A stretch of 61,814 nt of DNA from an uncultured Aquimarina sp. Lineage in GTDB: Bacteria; Bacteroidota; Bacteroidia; Flavobacteriales; Flavobacteriaceae. The notes beneath the pieces are model-generated. The model worked only from the letters and a program-made list of their open reading frames with translations. It did not search any database and was not told where the DNA came from. The position numbers were made by a program, and so were the translations under genes. Below are positions 10,575-29,603 of this stretch, piece by piece (position 1 is the stretch's first letter; each line of letters starts with the position of its first letter). The DNA is taken from NCBI GenBank assembly GCA_937951135.1, contig CALFCI010000096.1:1-61814 (forward strand), given 5' to 3'.

Positions 10575-10596
10575 CAAAATTAAGTATAAATACGTA
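10575..10596 (-). promoter_or_regulatory. nirB promoter with nitrate-regulon palindrome
   Basis: On the minus strand a 16-bp palindrome-like site (10581-10596, TACGTATTTATACTTA) shares its last two bases with a TAATTTTG box (10582-10575), matching the Bacteroidota -7 consensus TAnnTTTG. The same arrangement recurs upstream of six other transcription units in this window. No -33 TTTG is seen because the palindrome occupies that interval. Confidence 0.75.
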
Positions 10597-10661
10597 TTTA
10601 ATAAGTGAGAATATTGCAAATATAGTGGGGTACTGTTGAGAATTGTGAAATAATAAACAAG

Positions 10662-10694
10662 AAAACCTGCAAAATTAATTTTGCAGGTTTTTTT
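10662..10694. terminator. perfect 30-bp palindromic terminator hairpin
   Basis: A 15-bp perfect arm (10662-10676) is repeated inverted at 10677-10691 around GCAAAATT/AATTTTGC. On the plus strand it runs into seven T (10688-10694); on the minus strand it ends in TTTTCTT. It may end the structured RNA at 10716-10795 (minus) or transcription from the plus side. Confidence 0.65.
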
Positions 10695-10715
10695 AACCAT
10701 ATTGTGGTGTTTACT

Positions 10716-10796
10716 TTTTGGAGGCTTGCCTCGCAATGTGAAAAATAGTTGTCCGCGGGACGCCTCGTGGGCTTTCCCCGATGTGGCCAACTACTA
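10716..10796 (-). ncRNA. candidate structured RNA between the porin gene and nirB
   Basis: A GC-rich island in AT-rich sequence that can fold into nested stems. P1 pairs 10746-10751 with 10788-10793 (TAGTTG/CAACTA). P2 pairs 10756-10760 with 10775-10780. P3 pairs 10762-10764 with 10770-10772. A separate small GAGG/CCTC hairpin lies at 10721-10732. A palindromic terminator follows about 50 bases further on. The minus strand is preferred because the downstream hairpin would close a transcript of about 135 bases. I cannot assign a family; the Flavo-1 motif is one candidate. A 74-codon ORF overlaps it but looks non-coding. Confidence 0.45.
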
Positions 10797-10867
10797 ATGA
10801 ATGAATTAATGGTTTAGAACTTTAGCTATTGGTATTCATATAAGGCTATGTTCGTGTTTTTTATTTC

Positions 10868-12175
10868 TTATAAAGCAGCCTTTGGTGTAGGACTCCATTT
10901 TAAGAAGTTTGGTTTTACGACAAGCATTGCCCATCCCCAATTTTGTAGACCACTTTCAGAGCCACTTGGTAATCGTGTTGCTAAAAAATCATCACTAGCA
11001 AACAATTGAGAGTATCCGATTTTTAAGGTTGCATACGGTAATATTTTATGAGAGTATACAATATCGATTTCAGTTCCAAAATAATCATCTACTCCGTCTA
11101 TACTTTGTGCTGCAGAAAAATAGTGTGCCTTAGCGAGTAACTTTGATTTTGCACCAGTTTTGATTACTGCCTTAGCATAAATATCATTTAAACCTACATT
11201 GTTGGCGTGATTACCTACGTAGAAATAATCCATATACCCATTAAACTTATGATTAGTTCCAAAAATAGGGAAGAAGGATTCAATTTTACCATCCGATCCA
11301 CCGTTGTCATCACCACTCAACGTTTCGATTCCAAGACCAAATAAAGTTTTACCGGGTTTATAGGTTACTTCTAAAGAAGCATTATAGGCTCCTAAATCTA
11401 CGTCTTCAGCAAACTCACCTGTTTGTCCATAAATATGAGAGACGAATTTAAGTCCTTTAGTAGGTTTGAATTCTAAATGGGTACCAAATGTTTGTCTGTT
11501 TACAGTACCTTCAATTGGATCTTGACCGTCTAATTCTTGATATGAATTGTTGATGAATAAGAAACTAGCAGAAAGTGTACTCCAGTCTTTATGCAACCAA
11601 GCATAAGCCATACTCTTATAATCAAAAACGGCTCTTGCATTTCCTTCATTATTAGGATCAAATAGTGTTCCTATCCGACCAGGTCCATTTTGATTAAAAG
11701 AAAACCCAGCATCAAACTTAAATCCTTCTTTTGCATATTTTAATAAAATAGCGTCATGAAACCTTCCTTGCATTGCCCAATCTAAGCCACCTAATACTCT
11801 TTGGTCATCATAGACTAGCGCCTGTCTACCTAATTTTGTAGACCAGCCTTTACCAAATTTAAGGTCGACCCATGCCTCGGCTAATGACAAACTATTATTG
11901 TTGTCTCCAGCGGCAATTTGAGGTGTGTCTCCCCAAACACTTACATCTTGAAAACTTACATGTGCTGCAAATTTTTCAGCGGTGTATCCAAATTTTAATC
12001 TAGAACGTTGCTGAATGAATACTCCAGCATCACTTCCGCCTGGGATTGGATTTCCAAAACCATGTAGATATTCTGCTCTAGCTCTAATGTCTGCATCAAT
12101 ACTTAACTCTTGTGCTTTCCCTTCAAATACCAGTACTAGTAAAAGTAATATGGTAAGTTTTAATTTGTTTTTCAT
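10868..12175 (-). CDS. outer-membrane porin, alginate-export-like beta-barrel
   Basis: A 435-residue outer-membrane protein with a signal peptide (hydrophobic 7-17, cleavage probably after GKAQ at about 22) and alternating aromatic beta-strand segments resembling the alginate_exp porin family. Despite the family name, a role in alginate export is not implied. The gene sits between nirB and the NarL-like regulator and has the same double palindromic operator as the nitrate transporter genes, so it is a good candidate for the outer-membrane channel for nitrate or nitrite (inference). Confidence 0.8.
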   Translation of the reverse strand: MKNKLKLTILLLLVLVFEGKAQELSIDADIRARAEYLHGFGNPIPGGSDAGVFIQQRSRLKFGYTAEKFAAHVSFQDVSVWGDTPQIAAGDNNNSLSLAEAWVDLKFGKGWSTKLGRQALVYDDQRVLGGLDWAMQGRFHDAILLKYAKEGFKFDAGFSFNQNGPGRIGTLFDPNNEGNARAVFDYKSMAYAWLHKDWSTLSASFLFINNSYQELDGQDPIEGTVNRQTFGTHLEFKPTKGLKFVSHIYGQTGEFAEDVDLGAYNASLEVTYKPGKTLFGLGIETLSGDDNGGSDGKIESFFPIFGTNHKFNGYMDYFYVGNHANNVGLNDIYAKAVIKTGAKSKLLAKAHYFSAAQSIDGVDDYFGTEIDIVYSHKILPYATLKIGYSQLFASDDFLATRLPSGSESGLQNWGWAMLVVKPNFLKWSPTPKAAL

Positions 12176-12251
12176 AGGATTTAATTTTGTTTTGAAAACG
12201 AATCAGATTATGATGTCGCTTTTGTAATTTCTTTAGCTATGTTCTATTAGC

Positions 12252-12300
12252 GCATTGAAAATACTTAATTTGTGAGTACAAATCTAAGTATTAATACTTA
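12252..12300 (-). promoter_or_regulatory. porin promoter with two nitrate-regulon sites
   Basis: Site 1 is the perfect 16-bp palindrome TAAGTATTAATACTTA at 12285-12300. On the minus strand its final TA starts the -7 box TAGATTTG (12286-12279). Site 2 (12252-12267) keeps one perfect half-site, TAAGTA, and lies 33 bp downstream centre to centre. The leader is about 95 bases. Confidence 0.75.
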
Positions 12301-12626
12301 ATTTATATCTTATTTTTATATAAAAATTAGGCTGCTAAATTTTATAATCTTTAAAATTTCGCCCTTCTTATTGAAGGATTCGCGATACGGTATACGGAAT
12401 GATTGTATGCGATATAGTTAGGTAGCTATAAAGTTAATAATTTGATTTGTGGTTTAGGAGTTTACGATGTTAAATTAAGGTTATGAGATGCATCGAGAAC
12501 AACTATTTTTTGTCATGTACTTAGCTTATAAATAATAAAAAACACACCTTATTTTTATTTATAAATTATTGTTTTGAAATATTTATATCTTTGAGGAGAT
12601 ATTAATAGAATTTAATTCGGGCAGAC
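12301..12626. other. intergenic region upstream of the NarL-like gene
   Basis: No gene is seen. A dispersed-repeat copy lies at about 12480-12535 (see repeat entry). A -7-like TATCTTTG is at 12586-12593, about 34 bases before the regulator start, without a palindrome, so the regulator gene itself seems not to carry the shared operator. Confidence 0.45.
12480..12535. repeat. composite dispersed repeat, partial copy C
   Basis: It shares CGAGAACAACTATTTTTTGT and CATGTACTTAGCTTAT with the copies at 49340 and 50531, but lacks the CCTAGTAGG part. Confidence 0.65.
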
Positions 12627-13331
12627 ATGACTAAAATAATTCTTGTAGATGACCATTTTCTGGTTAGAGATGGTATTCGAGCTCTCTTAGAAGAAGAGCA
12701 TGAATATGAGGTGATTGGTGAAGCATCCAACGGGAAAGAGGGTGTTGCTTTAGTGCAATCATTGCAGCCAGATATTGTAATAAGTGATATTCGAATGCCC
12801 GAAATGTCAGGTATACAAATGGTAGAAGCATTATCATCATTACAACTTTCTGTAAAAACAATTATGCTATCCATGCATGATTCTGATGAGTATATATTAC
12901 AATCGATTACTGTAGGAGCAGATGGATACTTGTTGAAAGGTGCAAGTAAAGAAGAGTTTTTGAAGGCATTGTCTACTGTAAGCAAAGGCGAAAAATATTT
13001 TAGTGGTGACGTATCTACAACCTTAATTAATAAATTACTTACTGCCAATTCAACAAATCCTTCTGTTTCAACAGAACTAGTAGAATCTCTTATAGATACT
13101 ACAGATGATAAAGACGTAGAATTTGGTCAAGAAATGTCTTTTGAACTTACAAAAAGAGAGAAGCAAATACTTCAATTGGCGGTCTCTGGTAAAACCAATA
13201 AAGAGATTGCTTCAGAATTGAATATAAGTAAGAGAACTATAGAAGTACATCGATTTAATTTGATGAAAAAAATGGGGGTCAAAAATGTCTTAGAACTCAG
13301 TAATAAAGCTAGACGATATGGCTTAATTTAA
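12627..13331 (+). CDS. NarL/FixJ-family response regulator
   Basis: A 234-residue two-component regulator. The receiver domain has the acidic pair Asp8-Asp9, phospho-acceptor Asp54 in SDIRMP and Lys104. A LuxR/NarL-type HTH follows (about 172-230), with TNKEIASELNISKRTIEVHR as the recognition region. It is the only response regulator in the island and the likely partner of the NarX-like kinase at 4184, although the genes are 6.6 kb apart. It is a candidate to bind the TAAGTA-N4-TACTTA sites, whose half TACTTAT fits the enterobacterial NarL heptamer TACYYMT, but in reversed orientation. Confidence 0.93.
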   Translation: MTKIILVDDHFLVRDGIRALLEEEHEYEVIGEASNGKEGVALVQSLQPDIVISDIRMPEMSGIQMVEALSSLQLSVKTIMLSMHDSDEYILQSITVGADGYLLKGASKEEFLKALSTVSKGEKYFSGDVSTTLINKLLTANSTNPSVSTELVESLIDTTDDKDVEFGQEMSFELTKREKQILQLAVSGKTNKEIASELNISKRTIEVHRFNLMKKMGVKNVLELSNKARRYGLI

Positions 13332-13333
13332 GA

Positions 13334-13384
13334 ACTTGTCGAAGTTTTAAAATTAATTAGTGTTTTAAATAGTCTTCGACAAGT
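13334..13384. terminator. hairpin after the NarL-like gene
   Basis: An 11-bp perfect inverted repeat (ACTTGTCGAAG at 13334-13344, complement at 13374-13384) with a 29-base loop, between convergent genes. There is no long T-run, so termination is likely but not certain. Confidence 0.5.
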
Positions 13385-13447
13385 CTCTATTGTCGTAAGG
13401 GTTCTTTGTGCCTTAGTTTAATGTAGAAAATACTTATTTTATCAATT

Positions 13448-14278
13448 TTATTTCTCAGCAATGATTTCATATTGCCCAGTGATAGTATTGAAATTTTTAG
13501 TCAATTCGTTGGTAATACTATATACCTCTTCTAGTGGAAACTTTAAATTGAAAAAATCTTTTGGTTTTCCTTGAAATTTATCCCATTTGTACATGATAAT
13601 ACCTAATTCTTCTTCGATACTCGAGCTGTTATAGCCAGAAATGAGTAATTCGTCAATTACTCCTGTAAACTCCTCAAAAACAGATTTAAGGATCGTTTTA
13701 AATTTACCTTTTTGTGAGGGAAAAAGATAAGAAGCAGTATAGTATAAGCAAAGTCTTTGAGATAACATTCGTTGCTTTCCAGAGGTGTTAATAATACTAA
13801 CTAAATCTTGATTTTTACTTCTAAAAAATTGATTGTTGTAATTAGAATTTTTTTCTATTTTGACGACTAAAGTATGGCAGGCCTTTAAGAGAGGCGTATT
13901 AAGCGTAACAATTTCTAAAGCATTTCCCTTGCTTGGAGTAGTTTGTAATACTATTTTGAATTGATCCCATAAATTCTCTACACTTCTTGCCGAAAGCTTT
14001 ATACTAGAATTGGGGGCATTTTCTTTTAAAATTTTTAAATGTTTTTCGAATATAAAAATACTAGAATTAAGCTCTTTTTTGATTTTAGGATCTTTTACTC
14101 CTTTAGCTATAAGGAGATATGCTTTACTCATTTTTTGAGATAACATGCGTTGTTTTCCAGAAATGTTAACCGCCTTACTATATGGAATTTTGCCATAAGT
14201 ACTCGATTGTGCGAAGGTCGAATGTCCTGAAAATAACAACAGTATAAAACAGGTATTAAGTATAAGTCTTAGGGTCAT
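13448..14278 (-). CDS. periplasmic protein with two PilJ/NarX-type P-box repeats
   Basis: A 276-residue secreted protein (signal peptide 1-23, ending TFAQ) built from two similar halves. Each half begins with the sensor P-box: NISGKQRMLSQKM (38-50) and NTSGKQRMLSQRL (164-176). These match the INISGRQRMLSQKL segment of the nearby sensor kinase. In NarX-type kinases this helix binds nitrate at a dimer interface. Here there is no membrane anchor after the signal and no kinase or methyl-accepting domain. It may be a soluble nitrate/nitrite-binding accessory for the kinase or transporter (inference). A nitrate-regulon palindrome lies upstream. Confidence 0.82.
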   Translation of the reverse strand: MTLRLILNTCFILLLFSGHSTFAQSSTYGKIPYSKAVNISGKQRMLSQKMSKAYLLIAKGVKDPKIKKELNSSIFIFEKHLKILKENAPNSSIKLSARSVENLWDQFKIVLQTTPSKGNALEIVTLNTPLLKACHTLVVKIEKNSNYNNQFFRSKNQDLVSIINTSGKQRMLSQRLCLYYTASYLFPSQKGKFKTILKSVFEEFTGVIDELLISGYNSSSIEEELGIIMYKWDKFQGKPKDFFNLKFPLEEVYSITNELTKNFNTITGQYEIIAEK

Positions 14279-14305
14279 AACGAATATTTTTTAGAGTTAA
14301 AAGCA

Positions 14306-14327
14306 TAAAACTAAGTAAAAATACTTA
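14306..14327 (-). promoter_or_regulatory. promoter with nitrate-regulon palindrome upstream of the P-box protein
   Basis: Both half-sites are perfect (TAAGTA-AAAA-TACTTA, 14312-14327). On the minus strand the site overlaps a -7-like TAGTTTTA (14313-14306), which differs from TAnnTTTG only in the last base. The start codon is 34 bases downstream. Confidence 0.65.
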
Positions 14328-14541
14328 AAAAAGCAGGTATTCTATTACTTTTTTAAGTATTGCTGATATCGTTACATTTCGCTCACTATTTAGTTTTTGT
14401 AAGAGTCATTACTATAGTATTTAGCAGTTAATAGTATACTAAAGGGGGTAACAAGCCTTTTTGTTTCTAAATTCTCATTTTAAAACCTTCTAATTATCTA
14501 TTCTTTAAATAAGTGGATGTAAAATCAATAAAAAAATAAAA

Positions 14542-14607
14542 ATAAGTACTAATACTTATTTTTAAATGAATAGCTAAGTATTTTTAATTGTAAAATATGT
14601 AATTTTG
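14542..14607 (+). promoter_or_regulatory. nrtA promoter region with nitrate-regulon sites
   Basis: Site 1 (14543-14558) is TAAGTACTAATACTTA with flanking bases extending the palindrome to 18 bp; it overlaps a -7-like TATTTTTA (14557-14564). Site 2 (14575-14590) has one perfect half and lies 32 bp downstream centre to centre. A perfect TAATTTTG box follows at 14600-14607. Either -7 box could be used. Confidence 0.7.
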
Positions 14608-14663
14608 TAGTGTTCTATTAGCATAAATTATTAAAACACACATATTATTAAAACATACATATT

Positions 14664-16037
14664 ATGAAAAAAATACATCTCAATATACTAATGATCATTC
14701 TTGCTTCGGTAGGTTTACTATCTTGTGGAGGAGAAAAGAAAAAAGAGGAGGCTGGAGAAACAGCGCCAGCGGTAACAACGCTAGAAATAGAAAAGCCACA
14801 ATTAACTTTTGGATTTATTAAGCTAACAGATATGGCGCCTTTAGCCATTGCAAAAGAAAAAGGTTTTTTTGAAGAAGAAGGGTTGTTTGTATCGGTAGAA
14901 GCACAGTCTAATTGGAAAAATATTTTAGACCGTGTGATTGATGGTCAATTAGATGGTTCGCACATGTTGGCAGGACAGCCCATTGCAGCAGGAGCAGGAT
15001 TTGGGAGACAAGCAGAATTGGTAACACCATATTCTATGGATCTAAATGGAAATGGGATTACAGTATCTAATGATGTTTGGGCAAAGATGAAACCAAATGT
15101 ACCTAAAGGTGCCGATGGAAAACCCATACATCCGATTTCTGCGGAAGCGTTAAAACCTGTAGTAGCAGGGTATAAGAAAGAAGGAAAAGCGTTTAAAATG
15201 GGAATGGTATTTCCAGTATCAACACATAACTATGAAATTAGATATTGGTTGGCTGCTGCAGGAATCAATCCGGGCATGTATACCAAAGAAAATATTCAAG
15301 GACAAGTAGACGCTGAAGTATTATTGTCAGTAACACCTCCGCCACAAATGCCAGCAACATTAGAAGCGGGTACTATTTTTGGATATTGCGTAGGAGAGCC
15401 ATGGAATCAGCAAGCCGTATTTAAAGGTATTGGTGTGCCAGTAACAACAAACTATGATATTTGGAAAAACAATCCAGAAAAAGTATTTGTACTGACTAAA
15501 AAATTCACAGAACAGTATCCAAATACGACTGTGGCCATTACTAAAGCATTAATTAGAGCTGGAAAATGGTTAGATGAACCCGGTAATAGAAAAGAAGCGG
15601 TAGAAATTTTATCGAAACCAGAATATGTTGGAGCACCAGTAAATGTACTGGCAAACTCAATGACAGGAACTTTTGAATTTGAGAAAGGGGATAAGAGAGA
15701 CATGCCAGATTTTAACGTATTCTATCGGTACAATGCAACATATCCATTCTACTCTGATGCGGTATGGTTCTTAACACAAATGCGTCGATGGGGGCAAATC
15801 CCAGAGTCAAAACCAGCAGATTGGTATGCAAGTAAGGCTAAAGAGGTATATAGACCTGATATCTGGAAAAAAGCAGCTGATTTATTGGTGGCAGAAGGTA
15901 AAATTCCTGCAACAGATATTCCTGAGACAGATGGTTTTAAACCTGCGACTTCAGAATTTATTGACGGTAATACATATGACGGTAAAGATCCTTTAGGATA
16001 TATCAATAGTTTTAAAATTGGTAATAAAGAAAAATAA
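14664..16037 (+). CDS. nrtA: nitrate ABC transporter substrate-binding lipoprotein
   Basis: A 457-residue NrtA/CmpA-type solute-binding protein. The lipobox LLSC places the lipidated Cys at residue 21, followed by a charged linker. The mature domain begins with [20 protein letters not shown] and contains the ligand-pocket region around [10 protein letters not shown]. It is the first gene of the nrtABCD operon. Nitrate or nitrite rather than bicarbonate is inferred from the neighbours. The gap to nrtB (168 bases) carries an elaborate hairpin structure. Confidence 0.92.
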
Positions 16038-16055
16038 ATCATTATAATAATTTTA

Positions 16056-16131
16056 GGGAGTGTTGAATGTTTTTCGACACCAGCATAGGAGGAGGGGTAC
16101 TCCTCCTCCATATGCTAAAAGAAAAGCTCCC
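16056..16131 (+). other. three-stem RNA structure between nrtA and nrtB
   Basis: Closing stem GGGAG/CTCCC (16056-16060, 16127-16131) surrounds two hairpins: GTGTTGA/TCGACAC (16060-16066, 16074-16080) and a 13-bp stem formed by 16082-16094 with 16103-16116 around GGAGGAG/CTCCTCC, with one bulged base. There is no T-run. It probably protects the nrtA message or limits read-through, allowing more binding protein than permease (inference). Confidence 0.6.
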
Positions 16132-16205
16132 AAAAATTTGTAAATAAAATACGAATACTTATCGAATTGTAATTCAATACGTTTCATTCCCTAAAAAAAA
16201 TAATT

Positions 16206-17291
16206 ATGAAAGATAAATCAATCCATCTTTTGAACTTTATAGGCTTAGGCTTTTTTGAGCCAGCAATACGCTTGGCAAGTGGAGAGGAAGTCAAGAAAAA
16301 TTTGACAGCGCTGATAAAGAAAGTAGTATTTCCTATAGTCTCAGTAGTATTATTTTTACTGTTCTGGCACTATGGCGCCACTGCACTATACAATATTGAA
16401 AAAAATTATAAAATAGAAACTGCTCGTACTGCTGGAGGAGAGGCGGCAGTGGAAACAGAACTAGCAAGAATAGTATCAGGAGAGAGCTCAATTAACTCCC
16501 TACCGTCTCCTGGTGCTGTAGTAGATGCATTTAAAGCTTTGATCGTAGATCATAAAGCAATTAGTGCAAAAAAGACAGCCTTTGAAGAGAAGACTGCTGT
16601 ACTAAATGCAAAAAGAGAAGCCAATGGTCAGGCAGCAATTACGTATACTGGCAGACCTTCCTTTGTAGATCAAATCATGACGAGTCTTAAAACAGTATTT
16701 GCGGGGTTTTTCTTAGCACTTTTTTTAGCAGTGCCCATAGGAATGGTCTTAGGGTTAAGTGAAACATTGCGCTCCTCATTCAATTGGCTAATACAAATTT
16801 TTAAACCGGTATCTCCTGTAGTTTGGTTTTTACTAGTGTATATGATTGTTAAGTCTTTAACACTTACCTATGATGGGGATGTATCTTTTATCATTTCGTT
16901 TATCGCGGTAGGATTATGTGCCATGTGGGCTACATTAGTGAATACCACATTGGGGGTAGCTTCTGTAGATCAAGATTTCATTAATGTTGCGAAAGTGCTA
17001 AACCTGAGTGTAGGACAAAAAGTATTTAAAATTGTATTGCCTTCAGCTTTTCCATTGATCTTTACAGGACTTCGAATCACGGTATCTGTAGCATGGATGG
17101 TATTGATCGCGATTGAATTATTATCACAAAGTCCTGGGTTAGGAACGTTTGTATGGGAAGAATTTCAAAATGGAGCAAATGATTCTAATGCTAAAATTAT
17201 AGCAGCAATGTTTGTCATTGGAGGAATTGGTTTTTTATTAGACAGATTAATGTTCTCTGTTCAGAAATTAATGACGTTTACAGAAGCATAA
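16206..17291 (+). CDS. nrtB: nitrate ABC transporter permease
   Basis: A 361-residue inner-membrane permease of the BPD_transp_1 type. One membrane segment near 37-55 is followed by an unusually long soluble insert (about 60-155, rich in Ala, Glu and Lys) before the five C-terminal helices. The EAA loop region near IKVLNLSVGQKVFKI and the C-terminal LSQSPGLGTFVWEEF are typical of NrtB/SsuC-like permeases. It is in an operon with the two ATPases (51 bases to nrtC). The periplasmic insert makes it longer than the usual 270-280 residues. Confidence 0.9.
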   Translation: MKDKSIHLLNFIGLGFFEPAIRLASGEEVKKNLTALIKKVVFPIVSVVLFLLFWHYGATALYNIEKNYKIETARTAGGEAAVETELARIVSGESSINSLPSPGAVVDAFKALIVDHKAISAKKTAFEEKTAVLNAKREANGQAAITYTGRPSFVDQIMTSLKTVFAGFFLALFLAVPIGMVLGLSETLRSSFNWLIQIFKPVSPVVWFLLVYMIVKSLTLTYDGDVSFIISFIAVGLCAMWATLVNTTLGVASVDQDFINVAKVLNLSVGQKVFKIVLPSAFPLIFTGLRITVSVAWMVLIAIELLSQSPGLGTFVWEEFQNGANDSNAKIIAAMFVIGGIGFLLDRLMFSVQKLMTFTEA

Positions 17292-17342
17292 TCTATATAA
17301 AAGATAAGATATTTCTTATAAATCTTTAAAAAAGAAAACAGT

Positions 17343-18209
17343 ATGGCAGCACATATAGAGTTCAAAAATGTATCAAAATCCTATGGTGTAGGTGATGATC
17401 GTGTAGCAGTATTAAAGAATATAAATCTTAGCATTGAAGAAGGAGAGTTTGTAGCGATTGTAGGTTTTTCAGGTAGTGGAAAAACAACCTTAATTAAATT
17501 AATAGCAGGTTTAGATTTTCCGGATGAAGGCGAGGTTTTGTATAAAGGAGAGCCAGTCACAGGACCTAGTCATGACCGTGGTGTAATTTTTCAAAACTAT
17601 TCGTTATTGCCGTGGCTCAATGTTAGAAATAATGTAGGAATGGCGGTGAAGGAAAAATTTAAAAAATGGACTAAAAAACAAATTGGAGAACGCGTAGAGC
17701 AGTATGTTGAAATGGTAAGTTTATCTCATGCGATTAATAAGTTACCAAAAGCTTTATCTGGGGGGATGCGTCAGCGTGTTTCCGTAACACGAGCATTATC
17801 AATGAGTCCAGATGTTATTCTAATGGATGAGCCATTGAGTGCATTAGATGCATTAACACGAGGAACACTCCAAGATGAGATTTTGAAAATATGGGGTAAG
17901 GATAAAAAAACAGCCTTGTTGATTACTAATGATGTTGATGAAGGGATTTTAATGGCAGATCGTATTATTCCTTTAAAACCAGGCCCTAAAGCAACATTAG
18001 GACCAGAGTATGTGATTAATTTGGAACGCCCTAGGGACAAAACAGCACTCAATAGTAATGAAGAGTTTAAGAAATTACGAAATGGTATCATGGAATATTT
18101 GATTCAGATCGGGGAAGAACGTGCCTCAAAAAAAGCGGATACATATACCTTACCATCAATAAAACCTATAATCAAACCATCACCTTTTAGAAGATCGAAG
18201 GCCAGTTAA
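17343..18209 (+). CDS. nrtC: nitrate ABC transporter ATPase 1
   Basis: A 288-residue ABC ATPase: Walker A GFSGSGKTT (41-49), Q-loop Gln84, signature LSGGMRQ (138-144) and Walker B VILMDEP (158-164). It lacks the NrtA-like regulatory domain fused to cyanobacterial NrtC. It has a basic C-terminal tail of about 35 residues not found in the core fold. Together with the next gene it would form a heterodimeric ATPase. Confidence 0.92.
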   Translation: MAAHIEFKNVSKSYGVGDDRVAVLKNINLSIEEGEFVAIVGFSGSGKTTLIKLIAGLDFPDEGEVLYKGEPVTGPSHDRGVIFQNYSLLPWLNVRNNVGMAVKEKFKKWTKKQIGERVEQYVEMVSLSHAINKLPKALSGGMRQRVSVTRALSMSPDVILMDEPLSALDALTRGTLQDEILKIWGKDKKTALLITNDVDEGILMADRIIPLKPGPKATLGPEYVINLERPRDKTALNSNEEFKKLRNGIMEYLIQIGEERASKKADTYTLPSIKPIIKPSPFRRSKAS

Positions 18210-18219
18210 AGACAAGTAT

Positions 18220-19041
18220 ATGGAAGTAGTGGATAAAAATATAGTAAGAAGATCAGATAATGGGTTGTTTGAAGATAAATATATGCTTGACATTTCTCAA
18301 GTCACTAAAATATACCCAACACCAAAAGGCGATTATGTGGTGTTAGATGATCTGGATTTAAAAGTGAAGCATGAAGAGTTTATTTCGATTATAGGACATT
18401 CAGGATGTGGTAAATCCACATTGCTAACTATGATTGCAGGATTGAATCCAATTTCTAAAGGAACAATAGTAGCCAACAATAAAACGGTAATAGGGCCTGG
18501 ACCCGATAGGGGAGTGATTTTTCAATCCCCAAGTTTATTGCCTTGGATGACAGCATACGAAAATGTAATGTTGGGGGTAAAGCAAGTGTTTGCACATGGA
18601 ACCAAAAAAGACAGAGAGGATATTGTAAAGTACTATTTGGCTAAAGTAGGATTAGAAGATGCGATGTATAAAAAAGCGAAAGACTTATCACAAGGAATGC
18701 AACAGCGTGTAGGAATTGCAAGAGCATTTGCTTTAAAACCTAAGGTGTTATTATTAGATGAACCTTTTGGAATGTTAGATTCTTTAACCAGAGGAGAATT
18801 ACAGGATGTATTGATCGAAGTTTGGAATCAAGAAAAGATTACAGCAATTATGATTACGCATGATGTAGATGAATCTATTTTTCTAGCAGATAGAGTGATT
18901 ATGATGACTAGTGGTCCTAAAGCAAAAGTTGGTGATGTTTTGCAGATTGATTTTGAACGACCTCGTTTGAGAAAAGACGTATTGGAACATCCCGATTATT
19001 ATAAATATAGAGAACATTTAATCAACTTTTTAGAACATTAA
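18220..19041 (+). CDS. nrtD: nitrate ABC transporter ATPase 2
   Basis: A 273-residue ABC ATPase with Walker A GHSGCGKST (59-67), signature LSQGM (156-160; Gln in place of the first Gly) and Walker B VLLLDEP (176-182). It begins 10 bases after nrtC. A 20-residue N-terminal extension precedes the core. The pair of different ATPases is characteristic of NrtCD. Confidence 0.92.
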   Translation: MEVVDKNIVRRSDNGLFEDKYMLDISQVTKIYPTPKGDYVVLDDLDLKVKHEEFISIIGHSGCGKSTLLTMIAGLNPISKGTIVANNKTVIGPGPDRGVIFQSPSLLPWMTAYENVMLGVKQVFAHGTKKDREDIVKYYLAKVGLEDAMYKKAKDLSQGMQQRVGIARAFALKPKVLLLDEPFGMLDSLTRGELQDVLIEVWNQEKITAIMITHDVDESIFLADRVIMMTSGPKAKVGDVLQIDFERPRLRKDVLEHPDYYKYREHLINFLEH

Positions 19042-19092
19042 ATATTTACCCAAACTGTCATTTAGTTATGAATTTATTTTAAATTATTAGCC

Positions 19093-19407
19093 ATGGAAAT
19101 TAAAGATATCATTAGAAAATCAATTGCAGAATATTTAGCTGTAGAAGTACATAAAGATTCGGAGATTTTGGATTTAGGAGCTAAAATTGAAATTGTAGAG
19201 AAAAGAATTTTAAAAAAAATAAAGTTACAAACGGTTCCTAAAGATCCAGCTCCTAAATCGTATCAATACGAGATGCTTTTTAAAAGCAATCCTAATGATA
19301 CAATAAAACTTGATGGTTGGATTCCTATAGAGACAAGTACTATTGAAAAAACGGATAGAATTCCGGAATATATTGAAACAGGTTTACTTCGAGAAATAGG
19401 CACATAG
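19093..19407 (+). CDS. small protein of unknown function at the end of the nrt operon
   Basis: A 104-residue cytosolic protein, rich in Lys, Ile and Glu, without signal or membrane segment. I do not recognise a family. It lies 51 bases after nrtD on the same strand, before a very long hairpin, and is probably the last gene of the operon. Base composition resembles its neighbours. A role in nitrate uptake or its control is only suggested by position. Confidence 0.65.
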   Translation: MEIKDIIRKSIAEYLAVEVHKDSEILDLGAKIEIVEKRILKKIKLQTVPKDPAPKSYQYEMLFKSNPNDTIKLDGWIPIETSTIEKTDRIPEYIETGLLREIGT

Positions 19408-19505
19408 TTTATATTGAAAATTAGTGTATTAATTTGTTGAGTATACTATGCTAATGGTATTCCATTAAAGGTTTTTATTTAGTTGTAAATACCAGTAATA
19501 AATCT

Positions 19506-19566
19506 ATACCAGAAAAGCTGTCTAAAAAAGAGTGATAAACTCTTTTTTAGACAGCTTTTCTGGTAT
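19506..19566 (+). terminator. 28-bp perfect hairpin after the nrt operon
   Basis: Arms 19506-19533 and 19539-19566 are exact complements (core AGCTGTCTAAAAAAGAGT), with a 5-base loop GATAA. It is far longer than a normal terminator and has no simple T-run, but its place between the nrt operon and the globin promoter fits transcription termination. Confidence 0.65.
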
Positions 19567-19783: not shown

Positions 19784-19831
19784 TAAGTATTAATACGTAA
19801 TTTTGTAACATGAATTAAGTATTAATACATA
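19784..19831 (+). promoter_or_regulatory. globin promoter with two nitrate-regulon palindromes
   Basis: Site 1 (19784-19799, TAAGTATTAATACGTA) overlaps the perfect -7 box TAATTTTG (19798-19805). Site 2 (19816-19831, TAAGTATTAATACATA) lies exactly 32 bp downstream, inside the expected leader, 15 bases before the start codon. The two sites differ at only one position. Confidence 0.78.
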
Positions 19832-19846
19832 TAAATAGGGAGCAAT

Positions 19847-20275
19847 ATGGAACAAAAAACAGTAGATTTAGTACAAGAATCATTTGAAAAAGTAAAGCCT
19901 ATAGCCGCTACGGCAGCTGAAATTTTTTATGCAAAATTATTTGAATTTGACCCTGCTTTAGAACCTTTATTTCCTTCAAAAGATGAAGCAGCAATGAAGA
20001 ACCAAGGAAACAAATTAATGACCATGCTAGGAAGTGCTGTTGCAGGACTTACGAATTTAGAACGTCTAGTTCCGGTATTAGAAGATTTGGGAAAAAAGCA
20101 TGTGGGGTATGGTGTACAAGCATCACATTATGATACTGTAGGTGCAGCACTTTTAGGAACATTAGAAGCGGGTTTAGGAGATGAGTTTACGCCAGAAGTA
20201 AAGCAAGCTTGGACAGCTGTATATGGTACTATGGCTTCAGTAATGAAAGGTGCAGCATACGAAAACGTATCCTAA
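19847..20275 (+). CDS. single-domain globin (bacterial haemoglobin / flavohaemoglobin-type)
   Basis: A 142-residue haem globin resembling the haem domain of flavohaemoglobins. Proximal His85 sits in the typical LGKKHVGYGV (81-90), and Tyr28 in IFYAKLF is in position for the distal B10 Tyr used in nitric oxide dioxygenation. No reductase domain is attached, but a FAD/NAD/2Fe-2S reductase is encoded three genes downstream. Shared operators tie it to the nitrate regulon, fitting detoxification of nitric oxide formed from nitrite (inference). Confidence 0.9.
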   Translation: MEQKTVDLVQESFEKVKPIAATAAEIFYAKLFEFDPALEPLFPSKDEAAMKNQGNKLMTMLGSAVAGLTNLERLVPVLEDLGKKHVGYGVQASHYDTVGAALLGTLEAGLGDEFTPEVKQAWTAVYGTMASVMKGAAYENVS

Positions 20276-20309
20276 AGTATAATCATTAAATTATAAATAC
20301 AGATATATC

Positions 20310-21161: not shown

Positions 21162-21173
21162 AACTTATTTTTT

Positions 21174-21662: not shown

Positions 21663-21708
21663 AAGCATGGTGAAGGAAAATAATCGATTTTAAATTAATT
21701 AAGATACA

Positions 21709-22737: not shown

Positions 22738-22780
22738 AGACGCAAGATTTTGCGTCTCGACAAGATTTTGCGTCTCGACA
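22736..22780. repeat. GACGCAA palindromic repeat, copy 1
   Basis: Palindrome GAGACGCAA-GATT-TTGCGTCTC (22737-22758) followed by a second, tandem copy of its right part. The first 39 bases are identical to 25136-25174. It begins at the stop codon of the reductase gene. Confidence 0.85.
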
Positions 22781-22829
22781 AATTTTTGTTTAAAGACAAC
22801 ATGCTGTGTTAGTAATAAATAGAAGAAAT

Positions 22830-23543: not shown

Positions 23544-23564
23544 TCGTGGGTTGTTAAGTTTTAT

Positions 23565-23580
23565 ACTCAGTATTGAGTAC
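23565..23580. promoter_or_regulatory. TACTCA/TGAGTA palindrome upstream of the ResB gene
   Basis: TACTCAGTATTGAGTA is a near-perfect inverted repeat with the TAC ends outward and a two-base centre, the same geometry as the NarL 7-2-7 site, although the heptamers deviate from TACYYMT in their last base. It lies 115 bases before the ResB-like gene. A single copy is weak evidence. Confidence 0.3.
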
Positions 23581-23694
23581 TAGATATAGGGTTTTAGTTC
23601 TTTTTTAGGATAATTGGGATACTATAAGTGTCCGTTATTTTGAAGTTGGTCGTGTCGTTTAAGAAGAATTCAAAAAAACACTCTAAATAAAAAA

Positions 23695-25083: not shown

Positions 25084-26864
25084 AATCACTATTATTCTTC
25101 CTGTTAGGGTTCGTTTTTGTAAATGATACCGTCATAGAGACGCAAGATTTTGCGTCTCGACAAGATTTTGCGTCCCAATTACATAGTTTATCACCACAAA
25201 AACTGGTTGCTCGACAATATATCCCAACGATACATGCCGATCAATTTGCAGCCTTACAAGTGCAAGATTTTCAAGGAAGAACAAAACCGATACACACTAT
25301 GGCATTGGAACTCCTTCGAAAAACTCATGGCAAAAGTTCATTTTCATATCAAGATGATGTAGGAGATATCCAAAAATTAAATGCTACTCAAGTTTTTTTA
25401 GGAATGCAATTGAAGCCGGACTCTTGGCAACTTCTTCCAATCATTAAAATAGAAAAGCAGGCAATAGCTATAGTGTCAAAAGTGTTGAAGGTCTCAAAAA
25501 AGGGATATGCTAAGCCTGCACATTTCTTTAATTTTAGAGGGCAATATGTATTAAAAGATTATGTAGCAGCTGCTAATGCTAAGGCACCGGGCAAACGAAC
25601 GATTTTTGATAAAGATATTTTAAAAATAGATGAACGTATTAATATTGTATGGGGAATATTTAATGGTCAGTTTCTTCGAATTTTTCCAAGTAGTGATCCT
25701 GCACAAGAGCAATGGCATACCCCTATAGATGAACAGCCTGCATTGGACGAAAAAGAGCAGTTGTTATTTTCGAAAATCATCCCCTCATATTTTCAACAGT
25801 TACAAACGAGTATACAACATCAAGATTGGGGACTTCCCAATGAAACTATTGCGATATTGAATACTATTCAGCAACAAAAAGGAGGGGGAGTCTTATTATC
25901 AGAAGCTCAAGTGAAATGGGAAATACGGTATAATCAATATGCTATATTCTTTAGTTGTTTACTAGGGTATACTCTTATTGGTAGTATACTACTGATATTA
26001 AGTTTTTCTACCATATTCTATACCCAATTATGGATACAGTTGGGGGTTAAGATAAGTATAGTGCTCTTAGCGTTATGCTTTGTATATCATGGCTTCGGAA
26101 TTGGACTGCGGTGGTATGTTTCTGGGCATGCGCCATGGAGTAATGGATATGAGGCTACTGTATTTATTGCATGGGTGGGCGTATTAGCAGGACTTCTATT
26201 CTCAAAACGATCTCCATTCTCTGTAGTTGCAACAGTTTTAATAGCAATATGTTTGTTAGGAATAGCGCATGGGAACTTAATGAGTCCAGAAGTTACAAAT
26301 TTGGTTCCAGTGTTAAAATCATATTGGCTAATGATTCATGTTGCGGTGATTACAGGAAGTTATGGTTTTTTAGCCATGGGATCCGTATTAGCAGTATTAA
26401 CCCTCATTTTAATGGTATGTATTTCTAAAACCAATGCAGAAAAAATAGGGCGTCATATTCATGAAATGACAAGAATCAATCAATTAGCCACAACGATAGG
26501 GTTGTATATGTTAACGATAGGAACTTTTTTAGGTGGTATATGGGCAAATGAGTCTTGGGGACGGTATTGGGGATGGGATCCTAAAGAGACGTGGGCATTG
26601 ATAAGTATTATTATATATGCCACTGTTTTACATCTACGGATTATATTACCCAAAAATAGTCTCTTTATATATAATGTCTGTAGTTTATTTGCCTTAGCCA
26701 GTCTTATTATGACCTTTTTTGGTGTGAATTATTATTTGTCAGGCTTACATTCTTATGCCAAAGGGGATTCCTTTCCTGTGCCGCAATGGATTTTCGTAGT
26801 CATACCTGTATTGCTAGGTATAAGTATTATGGCTAAGATTAGGGCTAAAAGATTAACAATCTAA
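25080..26864 (+). CDS. CcsA/ResC-type cytochrome c assembly protein
   Basis: A 594-residue haem exporter/ligase. An N-terminal hydrophobic segment is followed by a large soluble region (about 35-290) and eight or so C-terminal helices. The tryptophan-rich haem-handling motif around WGRYWGWDPKETW is at about residues 490-505. Oddly, residues 19-32 (ETQDFASRQDFAS) are encoded by a copy of the GACGCAA palindromic repeat, inserted in frame just after the signal region. Confidence 0.9.
   Translation: MKSLLFFLLGFVFVNDTVIETQDFASRQDFASQLHSLSPQKLVARQYIPTIHADQFAALQVQDFQGRTKPIHTMALELLRKTHGKSSFSYQDDVGDIQKLNATQVFLGMQLKPDSWQLLPIIKIEKQAIAIVSKVLKVSKKGYAKPAHFFNFRGQYVLKDYVAAANAKAPGKRTIFDKDILKIDERINIVWGIFNGQFLRIFPSSDPAQEQWHTPIDEQPALDEKEQLLFSKIIPSYFQQLQTSIQHQDWGLPNETIAILNTIQQQKGGGVLLSEAQVKWEIRYNQYAIFFSCLLGYTLIGSILLILSFSTIFYTQLWIQLGVKISIVLLALCFVYHGFGIGLRWYVSGHAPWSNGYEATVFIAWVGVLAGLLFSKRSPFSVVATVLIAICLLGIAHGNLMSPEVTNLVPVLKSYWLMIHVAVITGSYGFLAMGSVLAVLTLILMVCISKTNAEKIGRHIHEMTRINQLATTIGLYMLTIGTFLGGIWANESWGRYWGWDPKETWALISIIIYATVLHLRIILPKNSLFIYNVCSLFALASLIMTFFGVNYYLSGLHSYAKGDSFPVPQWIFVVIPVLLGISIMAKIRAKRLTI
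25136..25174. repeat. GACGCAA palindromic repeat, copy 2, inside a coding region
   Basis: These 39 bases are identical to 22736-22774. The insertion keeps the reading frame and adds about 13 residues after the signal region of the ResC-like protein. Confidence 0.85.
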
Positions 26865-27342
26865 ATAATACGTGTATTTTTTTTTAAACTGTAGTATATC
26901 TACTCCATTGTTTTCATAAAGTAATCTATTAGATAAAGGTGTTATGTGATTTTTTGGTATGTACAAAGGCATCTAAGATCAGTACTATTAACAAAGGAAT
27001 AGAGATGCAAATCTAATGAGCTATCCGGCTTAGCCCTTTGATAAATTTAAGACAGACTATAGCGTACATCTTTGTGTCTCATCAACGTGTATGGCGGTAA
27101 CGTATTAATACGAACTTTTTACCCATAAATTGTATGATTGGAGTTGCTAAAAAACAATTACAATCGACAATGTATAGGCAGTATTACTGTGCGGTATTCT
27201 GCCAAAAGCCCACTAAGGCGATGTGTATAATGAGTTAAATAGATTCATTTTTTGAGTATTTCATAATAAAATAAAATAAAAATTATCATTTCACAATAAT
27301 TAAGGATTTTTTAAAAATAAGGACATATTTATGATTTATTAT
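26865..27342. other. intergenic region before the nitrate permease
   Basis: About 480 bases without coding character or a clear hairpin. The permease promoter with two palindromes follows directly. Confidence 0.45.
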
Positions 27343-27392
27343 TAAGTAGTAGTACGTAGTTTTGCAATTGTAAAAATAAGTAGTAGTACATA
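27343..27392 (+). promoter_or_regulatory. narK promoter with two nitrate-regulon palindromes
   Basis: Site 1 (27343-27358, TAAGTAGTAGTACGTA) overlaps the perfect -7 box TAGTTTTG (27357-27364). Site 2 (27377-27392, TAAGTAGTAGTACATA) lies 34 bp downstream. Compared with the globin sites both carry the centre GTAG instead of TTAA, so the half-sites are conserved but the spacer is not. Confidence 0.78.
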
Positions 27393-27432
27393 TTAGTGCA
27401 TACGTAATAATAACATGATAATATTGTAAATT

Positions 27433-28836
27433 ATGAATCTAGAAATTCAAAAATCCACAAAATTAGATCTTTTAAACCTTAAGAGTTTACCTATTCGTAC
27501 CTTTTGGATCACTTCTATAGCATTCTTTTTATGCTTCTTTTCATGGTTTGGGATTGTACCTTTTATGCCAGATGTAGTAAAAGAGTTAGGATTAACACCG
27601 GATCAAAAATGGAATTCTATTATAGTAGCGGTTTCTGGAACTGTTTTTGCTCGATTATTAATCGGTAAATTATGTGATACTTATGGTCCTCGTATTTGTT
27701 ATACATGGTTGCTAACACTGGGAGCGATTCCAGTAATCTTATTAGGATTTGTGCAAACACCAATGCAGTTTATTATATGTAGATTGTTTATAGGGTTTAT
27801 AGGAGCATCTTTTGTAATTACTCAGTTTCATACTTCGATTATGTTTGCTCCCAATATAGTTGGTACCGCCAATGCTACATCAGCAGGATGGGGTAATTTA
27901 GGAGGAGGAGCGAACCGTTTAGGGATGCCATTAATTGCAGCAGCAGTAGTCGCTTTTGGAGTAGCAGAAACTGATGCATGGAGGTATTCTATGATTGTAG
28001 CCGGTGTAATTTGTTTTCTAATGGGTATTGTATATTACTTTTTTACACAAGATACTCCTAGTGGAAATTATGCAGAATTGAGAGCAAAAGGAGCGCTGCC
28101 TAAAACTAAGAAAGATGAGGTTAGTTTTTCTACAGCCATAAAGGATTATAGAGTTTGGATTTTATTTTTAGTCTATGCAGCATGTTTCGGAATGGAGCTT
28201 ACGGTATATGGTACTATGGATGATTATCTTCAAAATACCTTTCAATTAGAACGTGCTACTGCGGGTAACTTGGTATTGTCTTTTGCGTTAATGAATATTT
28301 TTGCAAGAACATTAGGAGGGTTTTTTGGAGATAAATTTGGAAAGTTAAAAGGGTTGAGAGGTCGTGTATTGTTCATGGCAGTTATTCTAAGTATTGAAGG
28401 AATAATGTTGTCGTTATTTTCAGGAATGAATGGCATTACTTTTGGAATTGTCTTTTTGGTAGGATTTAGTTTAACAGTGCAAATGGCAGAGGGAGCTACG
28501 TTTTCAGTAGTACCATTTATCAATAAAAAAGCGATAGGCTCGATTTCTGGGATTGTTGGTGCAGGGGGTAATGTAGGTGCATTTGTAGCCGCAATGGTAT
28601 TAAAATCAAAATCAGCAGTAGCCGAAAAAATAGCCATAGCAGATCATCAACATTTAGGACAAGAAGCTGTAGAAGCAGCACAAGCATTAGCGTCGTCTGA
28701 GGCAGTATCTAGTGGGTATTTTATTATAGGGGTTTTTGTAGTCATTACAGCAGTAGTGTCATTAACCATAAAATTTTCTACTGAAGATGAAAAAGCTGTA
28801 GCAGAAGAGATGAAAAAACAACCATCATTTAGTTAA
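27433..28836 (+). CDS. NarK/NrtP-type nitrate/nitrite transporter (NNP family, MFS)
   Basis: A 467-residue, 12-helix permease. The NNP nitrate signature AGWGNLGGGA is at 151-160 and a second copy, GAGGNVGAFV, lies near 375. Motif FARLLIGKLCDTYGPR (72-87) includes the Arg residues expected to bind nitrate. It provides a second uptake route besides NrtABCD; both carry the same operator. It could also export nitrite; direction cannot be told from sequence. Confidence 0.92.
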   Translation: MNLEIQKSTKLDLLNLKSLPIRTFWITSIAFFLCFFSWFGIVPFMPDVVKELGLTPDQKWNSIIVAVSGTVFARLLIGKLCDTYGPRICYTWLLTLGAIPVILLGFVQTPMQFIICRLFIGFIGASFVITQFHTSIMFAPNIVGTANATSAGWGNLGGGANRLGMPLIAAAVVAFGVAETDAWRYSMIVAGVICFLMGIVYYFFTQDTPSGNYAELRAKGALPKTKKDEVSFSTAIKDYRVWILFLVYAACFGMELTVYGTMDDYLQNTFQLERATAGNLVLSFALMNIFARTLGGFFGDKFGKLKGLRGRVLFMAVILSIEGIMLSLFSGMNGITFGIVFLVGFSLTVQMAEGATFSVVPFINKKAIGSISGIVGAGGNVGAFVAAMVLKSKSAVAEKIAIADHQHLGQEAVEAAQALASSEAVSSGYFIIGVFVVITAVVSLTIKFSTEDEKAVAEEMKKQPSFS

Positions 28837-28987
28837 TAAATAGTGTTATAATAAAATGTAATAGTGCTATTGTGATAACATGTTAAATTGAAGTGTTTTT
28901 TTATGTTCTATAACTGGATTTGTTAAATGGTAATACGACTTAAAAATTAATTGATTCGATTTTTCAATTAGAGTGTTTCTTTCAAGG

Positions 28988-29017
28988 CCAGTTTCAATAG
29001 TATTGAAGCTGGTTTTT
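28988..29017 (+). terminator. terminator after the nitrate permease
   Basis: A 12-bp stem CCAGTTTCAATA/TATTGAAGCTGG (28988-28999, 29001-29012) with one wobble pair is followed by five T. Confidence 0.7.
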
Positions 29018-29581
29018 GTTTTTATCATGAATAGAATATTTTTAGTACATGATAAAAATTAGTAACATCGAAAAAATAATAATTAATAAACTTTTTTCTA
29101 GTATATGATCTTTCGTACTGTTCTAAGAATCAAGAAACAATCTCGAATCCTCGGGAAAGACTAAAAAAACAATTAACTCTTCTTCTTATGAAATTCTATG
29201 TGTATTGTTGAAAATCAAATCATTATGATTTTTTGTCATGTGCTTAGTAGAATATAACATAATTTCTTTCCATATAAAATACAATCATAGAGATATTGAT
29301 ACTTAGATTTTCTATAGCATTTGAACTCAATATAATTTAGATTAATGATCAGGGTTTTACAATTTGTTGCGTTTTTTGTTAGAATTTCAGGTATAAAAAC
29401 AAGTACAAAATCGTTTGTGTTATATCTGAAAAACAATAGAATTTATAAGACATTAATACCGAAACTCGATACTGTATCTAGCACTATAATAATGAATACC
29501 CTAATAACAAATACCGTATTTTATCGAATTCATAATTCTTAGGGGTGTAGGGATAGAAAAAGGGTGCTAAGTTATGATTGA
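29018..29581. other. intergenic region between permease and nitrate reductase
   Basis: No credible gene: the short ORFs here overlap on opposite strands and lack coding character. A partial copy of the dispersed GTCATGT-CTTAG repeat is near 29226-29262. Confidence 0.45.
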
Positions 29582-29603
29582 TACGTACAAATACTTAGAT
29601 TTG
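29582..29603 (+). promoter_or_regulatory. nitrate reductase promoter with nitrate-regulon palindrome
   Basis: The site TACGTACAAATACTTA (29582-29597) overlaps the perfect -7 box TAGATTTG (29596-29603). The leader to the ATG at 29753 is about 140 bases. No clear second site lies 32-34 bp downstream, unlike the porin, nrtA, globin and permease promoters. Confidence 0.7.

Follow-up and report, generated by a model that had tools for sequence, protein, structure and literature searches.

A palindrome overlapping the promoter start signal of nitrate genes in a flavobacterium and its relatives, the probable operator of an adjacent two-component system

One palindrome that overlaps the promoter start signal marks the nitrate-uptake and nitrate-reduction genes of a marine flavobacterium and its relatives; sequence comparison indicates that, most probably, a two-component regulator responding to nitrate and encoded next to these genes docks there. 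The DNA analysed (the window, 61,814 nucleotides) comes from an uncultured Aquimarina sp. Marine flavobacteria are major heterotrophs of phytoplankton blooms, and to our knowledge few regulators have been mapped on the sigma-A promoters of Bacteroidota. A short, easily scanned operator with a named response regulator (RR) would provide a predicted, testable nitrate regulon for these bacteria and would allow further members to be recognised from sequence alone, as urea uptake is here; the arrangement of operator and promoter is also relevant to the way in which transcription factors act at these unusual promoters. Nitrate-sensing kinases form a large class in Bacteroidetes according to the accessible part of PMC8199190, whose outlook asks about the role of nitrate sensors across organisms. 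Among the literature matches listed, no earlier account of the motif, of a flavobacterial nitrate regulon or of a flavobacterial Crp/Fnr motif was found.

The operator in the window, the assembly and related loci

A scan of the whole window for TAAGTA-N4-TACTTA returned nine palindromes with 0 or 1 mismatch, distributed over seven promoters. These are the nine sites listed by an earlier sequence-only reading, which had also stated that no equally good site exists elsewhere in the window and that the last TA of the palindrome is the first TA of a -7 box (TAnnTTTG in five promoters, TAnnTTTA in two); both statements hold, with no further site at up to 1 mismatch. The composite of palindrome and TAnnTTTG box, TAMGTANNNNTACKTANNTTTG, lies at 10575-10596 (-), 12279-12300 (-), 19784-19805 (+), 27343-27364 (+) and 29582-29603 (+), and these five matches are the only ones in the whole 3.11 Mb assembly. 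The TAnnTTTA box is found at the remaining two promoters, 14312 and 14543.

On the minus strand, the operator TACGTATTTATACTTA (10581-10596) shares its last TA with the -7 box TAATTTTG (10575-10582) and stands 27 bp from the start codon of nirB (8028-10553), which is followed by nirD (7578-7955) and a DUF4202 gene (6075-6716), all assigned with Pfam. A perfect operator (12285-12300, -), with its -7 box TAGATTTG at 12279-12286 and a TAAGTA half-site 33 bp downstream, precedes an outer-membrane porin gene of the Alginate_exp family (10868-12175, -; Pfam). Another perfect copy (14312-14327, -; box TAGTTTTA) precedes the gene of a double P-box (PilJ) protein (13448-14278, -; Pfam), which has a start that by eye resembles a signal peptide and carries GxxR motifs at both residue 38 and residue 164. 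The putative nrtABCD-type nitrate ABC transporter operon (14664-19041, +; named from translations), whose four genes are conserved in all 80 loci retrieved with NrtA, has a perfect operator at 14543-14558 (+; box TATTTTTA) and, 32 bp on, a weak second copy with 2 mismatches (14575-14590, +). This weak copy, the perfect copies on contig C122 described below and the lack of an evident -33 TTG are points absent from the sequence-only reading.

The gene that this reading had named a globin (19847-20275, +; homologue in 27 of the 80 loci) carries one operator at 19784-19799 (+; -7 box TAATTTTG) and a second 32 bp downstream, past the -7 box (19816-19831, +). The same layout is seen before the NarK-family nitrate/nitrite permease gene (27433-28836, +; NCBIfam TIGR00886, 300.8 bits, just under the cut-off of 311.7), with operators at 27343-27358 (+; -7 box TAGTTTTG) and, 34 bp downstream and past the box, at 27377-27392 (+). 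The last predicted target (29753-33274, +; operator 29582-29597, +; -7 box TAGATTTG) encodes an assimilatory-nitrate-reductase-like molybdoenzyme (NasC/Fdh-alpha) fused to a NirB-like FAD/BFD part, with NCBIfam scores of 581.9 bits for Fdh-alpha and 529.9 for NasC, both under the cut-offs, and a NirB match over 708-1169.

Nine sites with up to 1 mismatch compare with a mean of 0.66 and a maximum of 3 in 200 first-order Markov simulations of the window, and the five composites with none in all 200. At up to 2 mismatches the window has 16 sites, a weak excess over a mean of 9, and 4 of 100 shuffles reach that count. Across the assembly no excess was found at 1 mismatch (31 places, 51 for the motif read backwards); selectivity is confined to the strict or composite pattern. 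Nine of the 31 places nevertheless fall within 0.6% of the assembly (binomial, 2e-13), which also holds three of the five perfect copies. The other two (C122, 11260 and 11344), the only perfect copies outside the window, precede an operon of a porin and urtABCD, a urea transporter. The shared operator and small dedicated regulon of the sequence-only reading are supported; its restriction to nitrate is not, since porin-urtABCD joins.

In the 80 nrtA loci, which include near-identical relatives, together with the window, the generalised pattern TAMGTA-N4-TACKTA occurs 265 times, against 3 in a reversed control, nearly always before nitrate genes. N4 is the sole enriched spacing in this arm orientation (next best 16), and of the 258 sites found across the 80 loci only 6 fall within open reading frames. 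The arms match fully in 165 of the 265 sites; the other 100 combine TAAGTA with TACGTA (73) or TACGTA with TACTTA (27). Site pairs are spaced 31-34 bp, and extra half-sites occur, helically phased, about 22 and 32 bp upstream. By these comparisons TAMGTA-N4-TACKTA is a real, conserved operator, and a small dedicated regulon associated with nitrogen genes is supported in the whole genome and in relatives.

Promoter geometry

After 13 of the 258 sites were dropped (nearest gene unnamed or too little flank), 245 could be oriented to a gene. In 95 of them (type I) the -7 box begins exactly 14 bp after the start of the palindrome; in 63 (type II) the -7 box comes first and the palindrome follows downstream; 66 match none of three box positions. 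As the box is placed at -12 to -5 in the accessible part of PMC9723704, type I sites would extend from about -26 to -11 and type II sites from about +5 to +20. By eye, no clear -33 TTG can be made out in the seven promoters of the window, nor does one go with type I sites in relatives (3 of 95 promoters, 19 of 94 control boxes). The placement between -33 and -7 given by the sequence-only reading is only half right: in relatives the sites are not accompanied by a -33 TTG, and 63 of 245 sites lie past the -7 box, where MerR-like activation, one of the two modes that it had suggested, is not possible.

A second element, the Crp/Fnr-type box TG-N8-CA, differs in sequence from the palindrome and stands exactly at -41.5 of the predicted start in nrtA, globin and porin promoters of relatives. 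In many relatives nrtA and the globin gene combine this box with a palindrome placed past the -7 box; overall, the Crp/Fnr-type box is present in 48 of 63 type II and 0 of 95 type I promoters. Its stricter form is absent from both genomes of the window's genus (G000, G150). Before the porin, Aquimarina loci have 13 type I sites, and many other loci a Crp-type box at -41.5; one Aquimarina porin promoter (L044) has the Crp-type box as well.

The candidate binder and the sign of control

The proposed operator binder is a NarL-type RR (12627-13331, +) with the receiver plus GerE composition of the NarL/FixJ type (Pfam Response_reg and GerE) and the recognition helix SKRTIEVHRFN at residues 201-211. 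Its best PDB relative is NarL (1a04, E 7.8e-34, match over the receiver half), and the NarL DNA-binding domain 1je8 matches with E 3.8e-7. The proposed cognate histidine kinase (4184-5995, -; Pfam) joins a PilJ/P-box sensor (E 8.8e-11) to a HisKA_3 core; NISGRQRMLS at residue 51 holds the GxxR nitrate motif within the NxxGxxR pattern of the P-box, and HisKA_3 and HATPase_c are accompanied by no HAMP match at E 0.001 in Pfam. The accessible part of PMC8199190 reports this P-box motif in nitrate-sensor kinases and a PAS domain in flavobacterial members of the class; no PAS match was found here at E 0.001 in Pfam, though the protein has room for one. Kinase and RR genes adjoin in several relatives.

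Within the family, 40 of 43 RR+ and 5 of 116 RR- genomes carry the composite with TAnnTTTG, calls having been made on the best-scoring candidates only per genome; this procedure first missed the real RR of genome G027 (beside the kinase, with a composite before nirB), so that the 116, which stand as first called, may hold further RRs. Three RR+ genomes (G001, G021, G066) have palindromes and no exact composite. In 28 loci a site also stands before the RR gene itself, in some of them no more than 60 bp away. Of 396 class-wide genomes, 14 have an RR at E <=1e-45; five of these RRs (40-45% identity) lack a palindrome in their vicinity and appear to be other regulators. The NarL-like protein already pointed to by the sequence-only reading is thus supported as the likely binder by co-occurrence with the composite.

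A recognition-helix residue also varies with the operator. Among 85 RRs, one of which was left out (under 4 half-sites), V goes with TACTTA (114 G to 328 T) and T with TACGTA (159 G to 55 T). G+C content does not explain this match; TACGTA is kept in a genome of 62% G+C with a T-type RR. Two genomes run opposite (G137, V-type, 3:1; G153, T-type, 2:4), and other GerE positions also differ between the classes (e.g. R/K, A/S). On a receiver-only tree of the family the switch is a single change, so the correlation counts as one event and was downgraded as independent proof. A tree with distant families needs 3 changes, counted without an aberrant RR row (L016), RRs of <=190 aa and the 5 non-orthologues, but long branches meet there.

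Many relatives encode a Crp/Fnr-like protein close to nrtA, an attractive candidate by geometry and adjacency: the 5-N4-5 spacing is typical of Fnr sites according to the accessible part of PMC1274295, a Crp-like gene is present in 47 of the 80 nrtA loci, and the site precedes that gene in 26. The candidate was rejected on presence and absence and on the separate Fnr-like box at -41.5 in relatives. The window's assembly, 78% complete, contains no orthologue (only match 21% identity), and 10 of 42 RR+ genomes lack a close one, 8 of which keep the composite (9 of 11 with G027), compared with 31 of 32 RR+ Crp+ genomes. Even with more distant paralogues (35-40% identity) in some genomes, we consider this binder very unlikely. 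Binding by some other regulator, such as a MerR, MarR or Rrf2 protein, is equally unlikely. In its favour, the survey across genomes covered the RR and the Crp-like protein, the RR-operator link comes from comparison of sequences, and a ModE-like helix-turn-helix protein (by eye) occurs in 11 of the 80 loci; against it, the RR co-occurs with the composite and its helix residue varies with the half-site. A hairpin in the 5' leader RNA, or an extended promoter recognised by an alternative sigma factor, would suit a palindrome near start codons with fully matching arms in 165 of 265 sites; we find it scarcely credible, given that arms mismatch in 100 sites (on which the hairpin was disfavoured), that type I sites, upstream of the -7 box, would not be transcribed, and that type II sites lie downstream of the box. 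The conserved operator, as comparison shows, is tied to the RR and not to the neighbouring Crp/Fnr protein; it belongs most probably to the P-box kinase/RR pair, because the RR tracks the composite, the Crp gene is dispensable and the helix residue matches the half-site base.

We infer direct binding by the RR, nitrate as the signal and the sign of control. On balance we judge it probable, by a modest degree, that a NarX/NarL-like system uses the palindrome as its operator and acts by promoter occlusion relieved by nitrate. Nitrate would be sensed by the kinase (4184-5995). The RR (12627-13331) would bind TACKTA half-sites, with TAMGTA-N4-TACKTA as the best arrangement, and would thereby block the core promoter, in many cases as a pair of dimers separated by about three turns of the helix; with nitrate this block would be lifted, and uptake, reduction and globin genes, in the window's genome also urea uptake, would be switched on together. 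Occlusion is the most likely action of the RR because the operator's outer TA forms the T-12/A-11 of the sigma-A -7 box and further copies lie just past the predicted start.

The same regulator could instead activate from between the -33 and -7 positions, replacing the -33 contact, MerR-like in place and not in protein family. The missing -33 TTG of type I promoters fits an activator better, and the fixed 14 bp to the box, the phased upstream half-sites and the type I porin sites of Aquimarina, where many other loci have the -41.5 box, point the same way. In NarX and similar nitrate sensors, nitrate is believed to increase phosphorylation of the RR, which again fits activation. Against it stand the shared T-12/A-11, the 63 sites past the -7 box together with the second copies in the window's globin and narK promoters, and the Aquimarina porin that also has a Crp-type box. 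We regard activation as less likely than occlusion. A fuller version is a little less likely still: a NarL-family RR would activate -33-less promoters from an operator wholly between -33 and -7 that shares base pairs of the -7 box, Val/Thr would set the half-site T/G, and the same operator past the start would repress a second, Crp-type-activated promoter class.

Comparison with known systems

MerR-type spacer operators resemble this one in lying upstream of the -7 box within the promoter spacer. They differ in that an overlong, operator-filled spacer between -33/-35 and -10 elements is not seen here (-33 TTG in 3 of 95 promoters, 19 of 94 controls), that type II sites are placed past the -7 box, and that no MerR gene stood out in a list of 28 neighbour clusters. 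Crp/Fnr class II activation at -41.5 has its counterpart in the TG-N8-CA boxes of the relatives' nrtA, globin and porin promoters; unlike them, the 95 type I promoters have no such box, its stricter form is absent from the window's genus, and the operator does not track a Crp/Fnr orthologue across genomes.

The EsrB/SsrB/FixJ branch provides some of the closest solved DNA-binding domains (7vim, 2jpc, 1x3u), with ETHR or EVHR at the same place of the recognition helix; its signals and targets are different from those proposed for the RR. The NarL operator of E. coli consists of heptamers in a 7-2-7 arrangement, facing TACYYMT with N2 spacing. The operator described here is 6-N4-6, with TAC facing the centre, and abuts the -7 box; facing arms with N2 spacing (TACKTA-N2-TAMGTA) occur 3 times, against 265 for TAMGTA-N4-TACKTA. 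Also unlike NarX, the Bacteroidetes nitrate-sensor kinases are without HAMP and GAF domains, according to the accessible part of PMC8199190. With the proteobacterial NarX/NarL (NarQ/NarP) systems the flavobacterial locus shares a kinase with the P-box of nitrate sensors and a GerE-type RR encoded near nitrate/nitrite genes.

Operator in the window and in its own assembly

The nine palindromes of the form TAAGTA-N4-TACTTA described in the sequence-only reading were all found at the positions given there, together with the -7 boxes that they overlap (five TAnnTTTG and two TAnnTTTA). The window holds 9 sites with at most one mismatch, against 0.66 per window in simulations, and 5 composites, in which the palindrome overlaps a TAnnTTTG box, against none. 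In the whole assembly (3.11 Mb, 78% complete, including contig C96 with the window), the one-mismatch motif showed no excess (31 versus 51 for the pattern read backwards), and the composite TAMGTANNNNTACKTANNTTTG occurred five times, each time in the nitrate cluster of the window. Besides the two perfect copies described below, 20 sites lie outside the window, of which 19 were fetched: 10 lie inside ORFs and 9 are intergenic, six of the latter with a start codon within 300 bp. One outside site (C88:62042) has a -7-like box, directed away from the nearby start.

The assembly holds five perfect palindromes. Three belong to the window; the other two lie on another contig (G000:C122:11260-17900, L096), spaced by 84 bp and located 156 and 72 bp upstream of a porin gene followed by the urea-uptake operon urtABCD. 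Among 159 family genomes, UrtA (E at most 1e-80) was detected in the window's own genome alone, the other 158 giving no match. The porin-urtABCD operon looks to have been acquired and placed under the same control.

Pfam and NCBIfam support the assignment of nirB, nirD, DUF4202, the porin, the NarL-type response regulator (RR) and the double PilJ/P-box protein (PilJ2); the family matches fell just under the cut-off for the NarK permease and under it for the NasC/Fdh-like reductase. The closest NrtA matches among named genomes were from Aquimarina, the window's own record possibly being left out. At 29753-33274, a NirB-like FAD/BFD electron-transfer part is fused to nitrate reductase. PilJ2 (13448-14278, minus strand) has two P-boxes and no kinase part; homologues occur in 23 of 80 nrtA loci, all titled Aquimarina. 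A 104-residue ORF (19093-19407) between nrtD and the globin gene, without a match in Pfam, has homologues in 13 of the 80 loci. Eleven of the 80 loci (L025:3799-4137 and 10 others) encode a small helix-turn-helix protein, judged ModE-like by eye. DUF4202 (6075-6716) was present in 13 genomes among the fetched stretches, and because the nitrate kinase comes next in 11 of these, DUF4202 may take part in the metabolism or the sensing of nitrate or nitrite.

Conservation and association with the response regulator

The 80 nrtA loci were the best of 511 candidates of an NrtA search, restricted to named loci with flanks of up to 10 kb. In these loci and the window, TAMGTA-N4-TACKTA occurs 265 times, versus 3 times when the same sequences are read backwards; other spacings in the same orientation reach at most 16 copies. 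Among the 258 sites of the 80 loci, 6 lie deep within ORFs and 7 lack a start codon in the next 400 bp. With each site assigned to at most two genes, the sites precede nrtA in 76 loci, nirB in 35, the RR in 28, nasC in 27, the Crp-like gene in 26, globin in 19, narK in 18, PilJ2 in 18, the porin in 15, a homologue of window ORF 41201 in 8 and a Tll0287-like gene in 4, with unnamed ORFs at 6 sites. Sites of nrtA, nirB, nasC, Crp-like, globin and narK mostly lie less than 60 bp from the start codon; those of the porin are about 100 bp away, and those of the RR and PilJ2 often at least 140 bp. Extra half-sites recur in phase, at about 11, 21-22, 31-33 and 42 bp.

The nrtA loci encode two prominent regulators, the RR (12627-13331, plus strand; identity at least 45%) and a Crp/Fnr-like protein, each in 47 of 80 and both in 21. 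Across the 159 family genomes, the RR was found in 42, or 43 after correction (G027); the 32 genomes that carry a close Crp orthologue (E below 1e-75) are all among them. The composite gave 96 matches versus 5 read backwards, and was present in 40 of 43 RR+ versus 5 of 116 RR- genomes (Fisher 2e-28). Six RR- matches were seen initially; one, ahead of nirB, proved to be in an RR+ genome (G027), and the 10 kb around each of the other five contained no homologue of window genes. As judged by genome comparison, the palindrome tracks the RR, because the composite follows its presence, including in 8 of 10 RR+ Crp- genomes. The operator, the regulon and the link to the RR are shown by sequence comparison. 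The proposed cognate kinase (PilJ/HisKA_3, 4184-5995, minus strand) is encoded next to the RR in several relatives and carries the NxxGxxR nitrate motif, a feature of nitrate-sensor kinases, which according to one study (PMC8199190) include a Bacteroidetes class without HAMP and GAF.

The recognition helix R-T-x-E-x-H-R-F-N varies among 85 distinct RRs at its two x positions only; the second of these, between E and H, is V in 56 RRs and T in the other 29. V-type genomes have 114 TACGTA and 328 TACTTA half-sites, T-type genomes 159 and 55, with G137 and G153 as exceptions. G+C content does not account for the difference (type effect t = 11, G+C effect t = 1.3). Since T-type RRs form one clade, the correlation represents a single event within the family, and further domain positions also differ between the types. 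Outside the family, in 20 kb stretches, a T-type genome (62% G+C) had 12 TACGTA versus 3 TACTTA/TAAGTA, and the ratio was 11:22 in a V-type and 8:8 in an A-type genome.

Promoter architecture

For 245 sites the orientation relative to a named gene is defined. Of these, 95 are type I, with TAnnTTTG beginning exactly 14 bp downstream of the first palindrome base (nirB 23, Crp-like 19, nrtA 17, nasC 14, porin 13, narK 7, RR 1, PilJ2 1), and 63 are type II, with the box 14-18 bp ahead of the palindrome (nrtA 49, globin 14; 57 in Crp+ loci). At 21 sites the box begins 24-27 bp downstream of that base; the remaining 66 match none of these positions. The flavobacterial sigma-A box spans -12 to -5 according to PMC9723704; type I sites are therefore predicted to cover about -26 to -11 and type II sites about +5 to +20.

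A -33 TTG was present in 3 of 95 type I promoters versus 19 of 94 control boxes (unverified intergenic TAnnTTTG from the same loci and own-genome stretches). TG-N8-CA, an Fnr-like 5-4-5 palindrome, lies 36 bp ahead of the box (centre -41.5) in 48 of 63 type II promoters, 0 of 95 type I promoters and 9 of 94 control boxes; it also precedes a porin, mainly in Crp+ loci. A stricter form (ATGAY-N4-RTCAT type, at -41.5 of predicted sigma-A promoters) was found in 140 of 159 family genomes, with few matches read backwards; both genomes of the window's genus lack it. TG-N8-CA is also over-represented with a 14-bp gap to TAnnTTTG (30 matches in L016-L114 and the window), and upstream of the Crp-type box a conserved AAAAAGNGGTTT and a repeat resembling GCAGGTTTTTTTATGG are present in the nrtA promoters of Crp+ loci (e.g. 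L043:9871-9945).

Mode of control and known systems

We infer that the RR binds the operator directly, that nitrate is the signal, and the sign of control. The RR would cover the core promoter, and such occlusion is favoured for three reasons: the outer TA of the operator doubles as promoter T-12/A-11, activation is not possible from sites beyond the box, and the members of site pairs lie on either side of the predicted start. Activation by the RR would fit the missing -33 element, the fixed spacing between operator and box and the phasing of upstream half-sites; we consider it rather unlikely and rank it behind occlusion, which we hold to be slightly better than even.

Topical literature searches, with most subscription journals outside their coverage, gave no paper on this operator among those listed. 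The present system would work like NarXL, but the layout of the operator and its position in the promoter differ.
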